Positions 1 to 13,511 of a stretch of DNA of 34,023 bases are shown piece after piece. Under the pieces are notes generated by a model, which searched no databases, was not told where the DNA came from, and saw nothing but the letters and a program-made list of their open reading frames with translations. Source of the DNA: Burkholderiaceae bacterium (GTDB lineage: Bacteria > Pseudomonadota > Gammaproteobacteria > Burkholderiales > Burkholderiaceae_F). How positions within the stretch are numbered: the stretch's first letter is position 1; every line of letters starts with the position of its first letter. The stretch covers positions 1 to 34,023 of the forward strand of contig JAOUJD010000004.1 in the NCBI GenBank assembly GCA_029883565.1, in the 5' to 3' direction. Position numbers and translations under genes: made by a program.

Positions 1-48
1 GGGTTGCCGGAGCTGGCTGAAGGTCAGGCGGAACACCGTCACTCATGA
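1..48 (+). CDS. C-terminal fragment of upstream gene (possibly sarcosine oxidase delta subunit)
   Basis: Frame 1 is open from the window edge and ends with TGA at 46-48, giving a 15-residue tail (GLPELAEGQAEHRHS). Its stop overlaps an ATG at 45 (ATGA), so it is probably co-transcribed with the SoxA-like gene. Heterotetrameric sarcosine oxidase operons are normally ordered soxB-soxD-soxA-soxG, so soxD is the expected neighbour. The tail is too short to identify by itself; the name rests on context only. Confidence 0.4.
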   Translation, partial: GLPELAEGQAEHRHS

Positions 49-55
49 AATCTCC

Positions 56-60
56 AAGGA
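56..60 (+). promoter_or_regulatory. Shine-Dalgarno AAGGA deciding the soxA start
   Basis: AAGGA lies 8 bases before the ATG at 69. The earlier in-frame ATG at 45 has no such motif at the right distance, only the ATGA overlap with the upstream stop. This favours ATG 69, although translational coupling could still use ATG 45. Confidence 0.55.
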
Positions 61-68
61 ATAGCCCC

Positions 69-2951
69 ATGACCGGCCGCCTGCCAGAGAGCAAGACCCA
101 GGTTACCGATCGCGGGAAACGCGTGAAGATCTTCTACCGGGGGCGACAGGTCGACGCTTTCGAAGGGGACACGGTTGCCTCAGCGCTGCTGGCTTCCGGC
201 ATCGACACGTTTTCACGCTCGTTCAAGTACCACCGCCGCCGTGCACCGTCCTGCCTGAGCGGCCAATGCTCGCGCTGCACGATGAGCGTGGACGGGCGAA
301 TGCATGTGAAGACGTGCCAGACATCGGTCAGGGAAGGCATGGCGGTAGAGCCTCAGGGCAGCGTCGAGTTCGACCCGAAGGCGCTCGCCGGCTCGTTCTC
401 CTGGGCCATGCCTACGGGCTTCTATTACAAGATGTTCTACAAGCCCCAGTGGCTGTGGAAGCGGGTCAAGGAGGTCTTCCGTGCGATGCCCGGCAACATG
501 GCCACCGTCAAACCGCTCGCAAAGAAGCCGGAGTTTGACGCCGTGAACCTGAATCCGGAGATGCTGGTGGTGGGCGGCGGCCTCGCAGGAATCGAGGCCG
601 CCATTACCGCGGCGCAAACTGGGATCAGGGTGGTATTGGCCGAGGCTGACGCGTGGCTGGGAGGTTTCGAAGCCTTCCAGGGCGAAGCGGGATACCGCCG
701 TGCGCAAGAATCGATCCGCCGGTTGCTGGCGCACAGCAATGTCAGGGTCCTCACGTCCACCTGGGTGTCGGCGATCTACCCGGACGGTCTGACCATCTGC
801 GTTCAGTCCTGCGGCGGCGATGGAAAACAGGGCGTGCTGGAGCGCGTCTACCACGTGCGGGCCGGTACTACCGTCGTCGCAACCGGGGCAGGTTCGATGC
901 CCATGCTGTTCGAGAACAACGACCGGCCCGGAATCATCCTGCCTGAAGCAGCGCAGAGGCTCATTCACCTCTGGGGCATCAAGCCCGGCAGCCTGATACT
1001 GCTCGCCGGAGGAGATGACTACCTGTACCGCGTCGGGCTTGAATTGATGGACAAGGGCATCAAGCTGGCGGGGCTGGTCGACTATCGCAGGAGCGGCGGG
1101 GATGAAGCCCTCAGGACGAGGCTTTCCGACAAGGGCGTCAGGATCTGGAGCGGCTATACGCTAACGGGCTCCCGCGGGCGGACACGAGTCAACGGCGCGA
1201 CACTGGCGAAGCCGGACGGGTCTGACGTCCAAGACGTGCCTTGCGACACCATCGTCGCCTCATCCGGTCGCTACCCGCGCCACAAGCTGCTGGGTCAGGC
1301 CGGAGCCAGAATGACTTACGACTCCGGACGGAACTTCTACCTGCCCGAAAACATTCCGCCAGCCTACCAGGCGGCCGGGAGGCTGCTCGGTCTTGAAGAC
1401 CCCGAGGCGATCAAGGCACAAGCCAGGACCGCGGCTGCCAGGGCTCTGAAAAGCCTTGGCATCGAGATCGGGGCGACCGAGCCGGAGGCTGGACAGGCGT
1501 TTGAGGGTTCATCGCCGGCGTGGACCGTTTCTGCGCAGCCCCTCTCGACCGAAGACGAGAAGAAATCGAAGACCTTTGTCTGCTATTGCCATGATGTGAG
1601 CGAGAAGAACGTCGAGCAGGCAATCGAAGAAGGGTTCGGCGACATCGAAACGTGCAAGCGGTATACGACCGCTACCCAGGGGGCCTGCCAGGGCGGAATG
1701 TGCGAGGCCAATTTCGCGCATCTGCTCGCCAGGAAGCGGCCGGAGCTCGGATCGCGCGTACTGCCCACGACCCGCCCGCCCGTCTCATCGATGAGCATGG
1801 GTTCCATGGCCTTCGGGCACCACGATAATCCGCAGCGTTCACCGCTTCACCACGTGCAACTCGCGCATGGCGGCAAGCCCATGCGACTGGGCAGCTGGAT
1901 CCGGATGATGGACTTCGGGAACGAAGAGGCCGAAAGTCTCGCGGTCCACCATGCTGCCGGCATCTGCGACGTCTCCATGCTGGGAAAGTTTCGTGTCTTC
2001 GGGCCGGATGCGAAAAGGCTTCTCAACAGGATCATGACCAGGGAGGTGGGCAGCCTGACCGGCAACAAGATCCTGTACAGCTCTTCCTGCAACGAGGAAG
2101 GCGTACTGCTCGACGACGGCGTAATTCTCAAGATGGGAGACGACGATTACTTCGTCACTACCCTGGCGGGTCGGGCGCCACTGACCGAAGAATGGTTTTC
2201 CAGGTGGTGCCGCGAGGAAGACTGGCAGGTCAACATCGTGAACCTGACGGAAACGCGCGCCGGCATGAACCTCGCTGGACCGAAGTCCAGGGAGATACTT
2301 TCAAAGCTGACCGACGCCGACCTTTCCAATGAGGCGCTGCCGTTCCTGACCTGGGCTCGGATGAAGGTTGCCGGGATCGACGTCATCGCCATGCGCATGG
2401 GCTTTGTCGGCGAGTTGAGCTACGAGTTGCTCTGCCCTTCCAGCCAGGCCGGCTACCTGTGGAGTCGAATCCTGGAAGCCGGCAAACCGTTGGGGCTGGT
2501 TCCATTCGGCATCGAGTGCCTGAACATCTGCCGACTGGAAAAGGGACACGCGGTGCCGGGTCTCGATACCGATGGGTTCACCAATCTCTTCGAGTCGTCA
2601 TTCGGCTGGATGTTGAATCGCAACAAGACGGAAACTGTCGGCAAGCCGATGCTGCAATTGTTTTCGGACAGGCCGCTCAAGGAGCAGCTCATCGCTTTCA
2701 GCCTGGAAGGCAGGTCGCCGGTCCTGGACGGCGCCCTGGTGGTCAAGGGCCCCCGCCAGCTCGGCCGTGTAACGTCCATTCGTTACAGCCCACTGCTCGA
2801 CAAGACCATCGGCTTGGCTCTGGTTGAGCCCGATGAAGACTGGCGCGAAGGCGGCAAGGTCAGGCTCTGGATTGAAGAGGGCCGTGAGGTCGAAGCGGCA
2901 TTTGCGAAGCCGCCCTTTTACGATCCTTCGGGCGAGAGGATGAAGGCGTGA
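69..2951 (+). CDS. soxA: SoxA-like sarcosine oxidase/dehydrogenase alpha subunit with two putative [2Fe-2S] sites
   Basis: Large flavoprotein subunit (about 960 aa, normal for SoxA) of the heterotetrameric sarcosine oxidase family, which demethylates N-methyl amino acids and passes the C1 unit to tetrahydrofolate. Seen in order, numbered from ATG 69: an N-terminal ferredoxin-like domain with C62-x4-C67-x2-C70-x12-C83; a dinucleotide-binding fold with VVGGGLAG at about 167-174; a BFD-like segment with C505-x-C507 and C540-x4-C545; and a GcvT aminomethyltransferase-like half from about residue 598 to the end, where folate binds in the family. As I recall them, classical SoxA proteins lack these cysteines, so this copy is an iron-sulfur variant resembling a fusion of HcnA-, HcnB- and GcvT-type modules. 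The substrate is unknown; N-methylglutamate dehydrogenase (MgdC) is an alternative. Its stop overlaps the next gene by 4 bases. The ORF track start at 45 is the alternative. Confidence 0.82.
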   Translation: MTGRLPESKTQVTDRGKRVKIFYRGRQVDAFEGDTVASALLASGIDTFSRSFKYHRRRAPSCLSGQCSRCTMSVDGRMHVKTCQTSVREGMAVEPQGSVEFDPKALAGSFSWAMPTGFYYKMFYKPQWLWKRVKEVFRAMPGNMATVKPLAKKPEFDAVNLNPEMLVVGGGLAGIEAAITAAQTGIRVVLAEADAWLGGFEAFQGEAGYRRAQESIRRLLAHSNVRVLTSTWVSAIYPDGLTICVQSCGGDGKQGVLERVYHVRAGTTVVATGAGSMPMLFENNDRPGIILPEAAQRLIHLWGIKPGSLILLAGGDDYLYRVGLELMDKGIKLAGLVDYRRSGGDEALRTRLSDKGVRIWSGYTLTGSRGRTRVNGATLAKPDGSDVQDVPCDTIVASSGRYPRHKLLGQAGARMTYDSGRNFYLPENIPPAYQAAGRLLGLEDPEAIKAQARTAAARALKSLGIEIGATEPEAGQAFEGSSPAWTVSAQPLSTEDEKKSKTFVCYCHDVSEKNVEQAIEEGFGDIETCKRYTTATQGACQGGMCEANFAHLLARKRPELGSRVLPTTRPPVSSMSMGSMAFGHHDNPQRSPLHHVQLAHGGKPMRLGSWIRMMDFGNEEAESLAVHHAAGICDVSMLGKFRVFGPDAKRLLNRIMTREVGSLTGNKILYSSSCNEEGVLLDDGVILKMGDDDYFVTTLAGRAPLTEEWFSRWCREEDWQVNIVNLTETRAGMNLAGPKSREILSKLTDADLSNEALPFLTWARMKVAGIDVIAMRMGFVGELSYELLCPSSQAGYLWSRILEAGKPLGLVPFGIECLNICRLEKGHAVPGLDTDGFTNLFESSFGWMLNRNKTETVGKPMLQLFSDRPLKEQLIAFSLEGRSPVLDGALVVKGPRQLGRVTSIRYSPLLDKTIGLALVEPDEDWREGGKVRLWIEEGREVEAAFAKPPFYDPSGERMKA

Positions 2952-8833: not shown

Positions 8834-9844
8834 CTAGGCCGCGGCGGGAAGGCGACGATCCATCACGGAGAACCACAGCGGCGGCACGAGCGCGAGCAGG
8901 ACCATCGCGGGATAGCCGGCCGGCAGTTGCGGCGCGTCGGGGACCGTGCGCAAGTCCTCGAACGGCCGGTTCATGTGCGCGTGGTGATCCGAGTGCAGTT
9001 GCAGGTTGAACAGCACCCAGTTGCTCACGGCGAAGTCGGCATTCCAGGAGTGTTCTTCGCGCACGGGCTCGTAGCGGCCATCGACCCTCCTGCGCTGCAG
9101 TCCGTAGTGCTCCACGTAATTGATGATTTCCAGCAGCACGAACGCCCAGACCGACTGGATCGCGAACAGCAGCGCGCCATGGGGACCTGCGGCAGCAGCC
9201 GCCGCCACCAGCAGGACGAGCGACAGCACGGACCCCGTCAGCACCCAGTTGGACGGATGCCAGGCGGGACGCTGCAACCGCGCGAGGCGCATCCGCTCCA
9301 GCCGCCATGCGTGAGTGAAGCTGCCGACCACTGAACGCGGGATGAAGCGGTAGACGGTCATTCCGCGCGGCGCCGTCGCCGGATCGTCCGGGGTGGCAAC
9401 GCGCACGTGGTGGCCGCGCACGTGCTCGACGAAGAAGTGCCCGTACATGACGCTGACGAGCAGCGCCTTGGCGACGGCGCGGTCCAGGCGCGACGAACGA
9501 TGACCGAGCTCGTGAGCGATGGTGATGCCCATGCCGCCGGTGACCGTGCCCACTGCGAGGGCGAAGACAAGCAGTTCGCCCAAGGCCAGATCCGGTGCCG
9601 CGCCCACCGCTCCGATCAGCAGGGTCGCCTGCAGCGGCAACTGCAGGCGCGGAATCCACCGCACGAAGGGGATCGGGCGCCGCTCCGCCAGCACCCGCCG
9701 GGGCGCGCCGACCCAGGCATCGACGAGCGGGATCGCGACGAACGCCACCGCGATCGACGCCCAGGGGGCGCCGATCGCAACCCAGTGCAGCGGCAGCAGC
9801 GTGAACGCCGCGAGGAACAGGACTCCCAGGACTGTCGCAAGCAT
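8834..9844 (-). CDS. alkB: AlkB-type integral membrane di-iron hydroxylase (alkane 1-monooxygenase family)
   Basis: A 336-residue membrane protein with all histidine boxes of the AlkB branch: HELGH (111-115), EHVRGHHVRVATPDDP (140-155), the hydrocarbon-hydroxylase signature NYVEHYGL (242-249) and LQLHSDHHAH (281-290). Family members hydroxylate the end carbon of alkanes or related chains with electrons from rubredoxin. Hydrophobic segments at about 1-40, 68-108, 200-245 and 312-327 fit a multi-span protein. It is shorter than Pseudomonas putida AlkB (about 400 aa), and has Leu where the last box usually reads LQRHSDHH. No rubredoxin or reductase gene is in the window, so partners lie elsewhere. 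Substrate not known; a xylene-monooxygenase-like role is the alternative. Confidence 0.87.
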   Translation of the reverse strand: MLATVLGVLFLAAFTLLPLHWVAIGAPWASIAVAFVAIPLVDAWVGAPRRVLAERRPIPFVRWIPRLQLPLQATLLIGAVGAAPDLALGELLVFALAVGTVTGGMGITIAHELGHRSSRLDRAVAKALLVSVMYGHFFVEHVRGHHVRVATPDDPATAPRGMTVYRFIPRSVVGSFTHAWRLERMRLARLQRPAWHPSNWVLTGSVLSLVLLVAAAAAAGPHGALLFAIQSVWAFVLLEIINYVEHYGLQRRRVDGRYEPVREEHSWNADFAVSNWVLFNLQLHSDHHAHMNRPFEDLRTVPDAPQLPAGYPAMVLLALVPPLWFSVMDRRLPAAA

Positions 9845-13204: not shown

Positions 13205-13268
<64 letters not shown>

Positions 13269-13289
<21 letters not shown>

Positions 13290-13421: not shown

Positions 13422-13480
13422 CGAGTCCTCTCCTGGGCACCAGCATTGTCTCAAAGAGCCGGCCGTGGCCGGCTCTTTGC
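13422..13480 (+). repeat. Direct repeat copy 2: truncated tRNA-Leu 3' end plus terminator
   Basis: Same 59 bases as 13269-13327, shifted by 153, with one mismatch. It includes half the T-loop, the T-stem 3' side, acceptor 3' strand, CCA and terminator, but no tRNA body, so it is not a functional tRNA. It could be a tandem-tRNA deletion scar or an attachment-site relic. Confidence 0.9.
13453..13478. terminator. Second terminator copy, likely bidirectional, serving the phosphoribosyltransferase gene
   Basis: AAAGAGCCGGCC-GT-GGCCGGCTCTTT has A and T runs on both sides. It lies 34 bases downstream of the minus-strand stop at 13512, so it can end that operon as well as back up the tRNA terminator. 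Confidence 0.7.
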
Positions 13481-13511
13481 ATTGCGTGGCTGTCCGCCCC
13501 GTGGCCGGCTT

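Follow-up and report, generated by a model that had tools for sequence, protein, structure and literature searches.

The window, a stretch of 34,023 nucleotides at the start of contig JAOUJD010000004.1 from a Burkholderiaceae bacterium, encodes a soxA-like protein that is, judged from its sequence, a real, conserved and unusual iron-sulfur-type variant of the SoxA/MgdC family. In our best reading, this protein is a folate-coupled N-methyl amino-acid dehydrogenase, predicted to carry at least one [2Fe-2S] cluster and to act on a putative N-methylated substrate with a putative electron acceptor. It is probably the alpha subunit of a SoxBDAG-type heterotetrameric N-methyl amino-acid or amine dehydrogenase, which retains iron-sulfur wiring lost in its relatives. 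Sarcosine oxidase possesses ferredoxin-like and BFD-like folds without cluster ligands, and a living iron-sulfur version fused to a folate half would show the origin of these folds as relics. Such a protein would make the origin of the oxidases from electron-transferring dehydrogenases directly testable and would extend one-carbon salvage in environmental Gammaproteobacteria by a new enzyme.

Domains and cysteine sets of the soxA-like protein

The open reading frame translation gives a 968-codon soxA-like frame at 45-2951 (+). ATG69 is most likely the start codon rather than ATG45, because the orthologue at locus L080 has an in-frame stop just 5′ of the equivalent Met, its frame opening only 15 bases before, and because positions 2-61 of the window align with the C-terminus of SoxD. 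Residue numbers from ATG69 are those of frame 45 minus 8 (for example, C529 is position 537). In the frame-45 numbering, Pfam placed Fer2_4 at 25-104, Pyr_redox_2 in the dinucleotide binding region, SO_alpha_A3 at 507-591, Fer2_BFD at 512-562 (overlapping SO_alpha_A3), GCV_T at 601-856 and GCV_T_C at 881-960, all above cut-off. Thus, the Pfam domains support the N-terminal ferredoxin-like fold and the GcvT half that the original prediction had proposed. The cysteines C62, C67, C70, C83, C505, C507, C540 and C545 lie exactly where that prediction had placed them. The coordinates are listed in Table 1.

Table 1. Features of the soxA-like gene and its neighbours in the window
Feature	Position	Strand	Evidence or remark
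soxD-like (delta) gene, 3′ end	2..64	+	cut by contig edge; overlaps alternative soxA start ATG45; tblastn, L080 SoxD residues 60-79 vs window 2-61, 70% identity
soxA-like gene (alpha subunit)	69..2951	+	ATG69 more likely start than ATG45; Pfam domains
Fer2_4 ferredoxin-like domain	117..356	+	Pfam 86.5 bits; weak AF2 domain model, pLDDT 66
Cys set 1, C-x4-C-x2-C-x12-C	252..317 (codons 252-254, 267-269, 276-278, 315-317)	+	sequence, clade alignment
Dinucleotide (FAD or NAD) binding region, GxGxxG at start	537..1460 (end approximate)	+	Pfam Pyr_redox_2; alignment to 1vrq_A
SO_alpha_A3 / BFD-like domain	1563..1817	+	Pfam 60.8 and 34.6 bits
Cys set 2, C-x-C-x32-C-x4-C	1581..1703 (codons 1581-1583, 1587-1589, 1686-1688, 1701-1703)	+	sequence, clade alignment
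Clade-specific extra Cys, C529	codon 1653-1655, inside set 2 span	+	sequence, clade alignment
GcvT-like folate-binding half (GCV_T + GCV_T_C)	1845..2924	+	Pfam 214.6 and 56.1 bits; own tree
soxG-like (gamma) gene, 206 aa	2948..3568	+	L078-L081 homologues in equivalent place (59-62% to L080 soxG); GCV_T 29.7 bits

We scanned 84,980 species genomes with six exact peptides, a search in which distant members would be missed. Six loci (L078-L083) matched at 67-85% identity in the best segment. They are labeled Burkholderiales, Gammaproteobacteria or Luminiphilus and all come from metagenome assemblies; because L079 and L081 belong to the same assembly, the six loci do not represent six assemblies. 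The original prediction had staked the cluster idea on conservation in close homologues, and both sets were kept in these loci wherever covered: set 1 in 5/5 sequences and set 2 in 6/6. The extra Cys at position 537 was likewise invariant. The chance of Cys at all eight prescribed positions is near 1e-14 (Cys makes up 1.9% overall). Given this probability and the invariance in close relatives, the cysteine sets are not a chance occurrence. No match of comparable score was found beyond the window's own genome in the overlapping samples of the order (300 genomes), phylum (399) and class (369). Thus, the Cys-bearing clade is rare as sampled within Pseudomonadota. A tblastn search of plasmids, using only the N-terminal and BFD parts as queries, revealed no GcvT-fused protein with the cysteines in the sample of matches read, and searches of the open-access literature yielded no account of iron-sulfur forms of SoxA.

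A full-length AF2 model from seven close sequences reached a pLDDT of 42, too poor for measuring Cys-Cys distances. The N-terminal domain modeled alone matched the complex I NuoG-type domain, formate dehydrogenase and 1y56_A by Foldseek (TM ~0.5). The domain model thus supports a ferredoxin-like fold but not cluster geometry.

Operon and genomic neighbourhood

As is the case for sarcosine oxidase, the soxA-like gene is encoded with soxB, soxD and soxG. The soxB-D-A-G order is complete in L078 and L080, and fragments of it occur in other assemblies. In the window, the contig edge removes soxB and most of soxD, and a search of its own genome assembly (~94% complete) for a soxB of matching type gave only weak unrelated matches. 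Near the contig edge, the window could contain an error of binning or assembly; however, the same gene order recurs in those other assemblies. The GC3 values of soxA (0.78) and soxG (0.71) are below those of the adjoining genes (0.84-0.93), and the operon may have arrived by horizontal transfer. SoxB of L078 and L080 matches the beta subunit of TSOX (2gag_B, 297 bits for L080) and keeps the His aligned with TSOX beta His173, which we take to be the covalent FMN site. The preceding residue is His in these two proteins, whereas TSOX has Lys at this place and MgdA and rhizobial SoxB have Arg. Zinc-type ligands (CxxC...H...C) are kept in SoxD.

Downstream of the operon in L080 and L081 lies purU, which fits folate one-carbon disposal. 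The neighbourhoods of L078 and L080 have a class III aminotransferase in common (about 72%) and those of L080 and L083 a TPP enzyme; a cupin, an MFS transporter and a GMC choline-dehydrogenase-like enzyme lie near the L080 operon and a TonB receptor near that of L078. These neighbours suggest a catabolic cluster. Among the neighbours, we recognised no gene for a cytochrome, ETF or quinone partner. A taurine-type route composed of the aminotransferase and the TPP enzyme was not adopted, the TPP enzyme scoring 209.7 against 676.4 for Xsc. A search for an orthologue of the aminotransferase in the window's own genome gave at best 35-39% identity. Therefore, the substrate clues from the neighbours of L078 and L080 do not transfer to the window. 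Near both operons also lie genes for orthologous hydrophobic proteins (L080 2976-4094 (-) and L078 4453-5649 (+), 67%), which are probably multi-pass membrane proteins and match no Pfam family above cut-off; they are candidate substrate transporters.

Related enzymes, phylogeny and possible function

The soxA-like protein has the domain order of SoxA (Fer2-like, dinucleotide, A3, GcvT; PDB 1vrq, 2gag) and shares with it the GcvT half, the operon and the covalent-FMN His in SoxB. However, its score with TIGR01372 (sarcosine oxidase alpha) is 588 bits over the whole length against a curated cut-off of 1164, and soxB and soxD likewise score below their cut-offs. SoxA also differs in lacking both Cys sets. 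In the alignment, TSOX alpha does not possess set 2, and the aligned part ends just before set 1. Neither set was found in any of 85 full-length SoxA/MgdC-type homologues (74 + 11) taken from plasmids and from the three taxonomic samples (order, phylum, class), and every one of them has at most one Cys at the eight positions. Thus, the proposal that classical SoxA proteins do not have these cysteines was borne out. Several MgdC-type proteins annotated as "2Fe-2S" were at first suspected of having the motifs, but on inspection they do not. Because these labeled homologues do not possess either set, the name "2Fe-2S iron-sulfur cluster-binding protein" is a domain-level name and not evidence for a cluster. 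MgdC is also GcvT-fused, is the closest sister in our trees and is encoded in a similar kind of operon; in contrast to the window protein, it does not possess the cysteines. The 85 homologues include MgdC encoded beside gmaS/mgsABC in Acidithiobacillus caldus and on Acinetobacter plasmids. Because MgdC of N-methylglutamate dehydrogenase is without the cysteines, cluster loss does not divide oxidases from dehydrogenases.

The cysteines align column for column with those of the opine-type cluster L091, L092, L093, of OoxA from the octopine Ti plasmid (L095), and of a fused protein from Embleya (L094), in which both sets lie on a single chain without GcvT. The other four carry set 2, and L091 and L095 have a separate gene for the ferredoxin part. 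As originally predicted, both patterns therefore match opine-oxidase-type subunits, at the positions of their [2Fe-2S] motifs. According to Watanabe and colleagues, who determined its FAD, FMN and iron, opine dehydrogenase has dehydrogenase activity and no oxidase activity (PMC4575208). The motifs are C-x4-C-x2-C-x11-12-C in gamma and C-x-C-...-C-x4-C in alpha; the iron content, about 7.5 Fe per alpha4beta4gamma4, was read as one [2Fe-2S] per alpha-beta-gamma unit and assigned to gamma only (PMC4575208). Our reading as an iron-sulfur dehydrogenase is supported, among other things, by the one-for-one Cys alignment with OoxA-type proteins and L094 together with these properties of opine dehydrogenase. 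Because its cluster is credited to the gamma motif only, set 1 is a stronger case than set 2. OdhABC, OoxA/OoxB, D-hydroxyproline dehydrogenase and HcnABC have the two [2Fe-2S] Cys motifs, the dinucleotide core and a DAO-type beta partner in common with the window protein. However, their ferredoxin part is a separate small (gamma) subunit and they have no GcvT half, whereas all these parts are fused in the window protein. The alpha subunit of archaeal L-proline dehydrogenase (PH1363, 1y56_A; 493 residues) likewise has fused ferredoxin-like, dinucleotide and BFD-like parts and keeps the BFD-type cysteines, but does not possess the N-terminal cysteines or the GcvT half. Thus, subsets of the Cys sites occur in nature.

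On the basis of the domains, cysteines, conservation, operon and lineage, we propose the following mechanism. The SoxB-like beta subunit, with FAD and covalent FMN, would oxidise an N-methyl group. Electrons would pass from FAD to FMN and to a predicted [2Fe-2S] cluster in the N-terminal ferredoxin-like domain, perhaps by way of a further cluster in the BFD-like domain, and would exit to a respiratory acceptor, so that the enzyme would act as a dehydrogenase. The imine would move to the GcvT half, where tetrahydrofolate may take the one-carbon unit as 5,10-methylene-THF.

We constructed a tree of the FAD+BFD part, from which the set 2 Cys columns were taken out, with opine-type proteins as the outgroup. 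The Cys-bearing clade was recovered as a single group (100/100), and its stem measured 2.65 changes per column. It fell on the side of SoxA (97/93) and MgdC-like proteins (96/84), far from the outgroup (100/100), and was joined to the MgdC-like group from outside at 86/84. When SoxA and MgdC were constrained together, leaving the Cys clade basal, the topology was not rejected (AU p=0.335) and therefore allows one loss of the cysteines. In the GcvT-half tree, the clade joined the MgdC-like group at 98/95 and the basal alternative was near rejection (AU p=0.077), a topology that calls for either two losses of the cysteines, their regain or a swap of segments. This result would suit a recombination that brought the Cys-bearing N-terminal and BFD segments of an opine-oxidase-type gene into an MgdC-like gene without the cysteines, so that these segments would not be ancestral. 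We regard this origin as unlikely, given the distance from the opine-type outgroup and the unrejected basal place in the FAD+BFD tree. Moreover, position 513 is Asp in both SoxA and MgdC, and position 553 is Ser in most of them (frame-45 numbering), which suggests one loss. By the FAD+BFD tree, the Cys-bearing clade forms a third, deeply branching lineage alongside SoxA and MgdC. It may, as a tentative extension, represent an undescribed third SoxBDAG class: folate-coupled N-demethylating dehydrogenases with two [2Fe-2S] clusters in one alpha chain, which would feed the respiratory chain and be a surviving intermediate between split iron-sulfur opine-type dehydrogenases and cluster-free sarcosine oxidase/MgdC.

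There is a sizeable minority chance that only the N-terminal set holds a [2Fe-2S] cluster and that the BFD-like set is structural, another metal site or vestigial. The assignment of the opine dehydrogenase iron to gamma favors this, and 1y56_A retains just the BFD-type cysteines; a "four cysteine cluster" is mentioned for this enzyme family (PMC4575208, S2 Table legend). However, no member of the clade varies at any of the four BFD-type cysteines, and the Fer2_BFD score exceeds its cut-off. It is improbable that neither set binds a redox cluster, the cysteines being zinc ligands, disulfides or structural and the enzyme an ordinary TSOX-like oxidase: the SoxB, SoxD and GcvT parts are intact and TSOX-like, but the exact [2Fe-2S] spacings are common with a family of measured iron-sulfur enzymes (PMC4575208). 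It is very improbable that the protein is MgdC of N-methylglutamate dehydrogenase in the methylamine pathway, even though the MgdC-like group is the nearest large sister in both trees and its A. caldus and Acinetobacter members adjoin gmaS/mgsABC. No glutamine synthetase III/gmaS scored above cut-off in the window's genome (best 200.7 against 469.6 bits), none was present among the scanned L078 and L080 neighbours, and the long-stemmed clade lies outside the MgdC-like group, whose members do not possess the cysteines. N-methylglutamate, which the original prediction had listed among the compounds to assay, is therefore unlikely as the substrate. The iron-sulfur dehydrogenase remains our preferred reading.

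Other loci

On plasmid pFER4 of Paracoccus ferrooxidans (L018, 1-11490), an MgdC-like soxB-D-A-G-type operon lies near xsc, a sulfate exporter gene and a phosphotransacetylase gene, which suggests an N-methyltaurine demethylase. In the window, a histidine-rich membrane protein at 8834-9844 (-) resembles by eye an AlkB-type alkane hydroxylase/desaturase and has no NCBIfam match at 1e-20. A tRNA-Leu(CAG) gene is located at 13205-13289, and its last 21 bases, together with the hairpin that follows, are repeated at 13422-13483 (97%), 153 bases downstream. This repeat looks like a partial duplication of the tRNA 3′-end, as an integrated element leaves.
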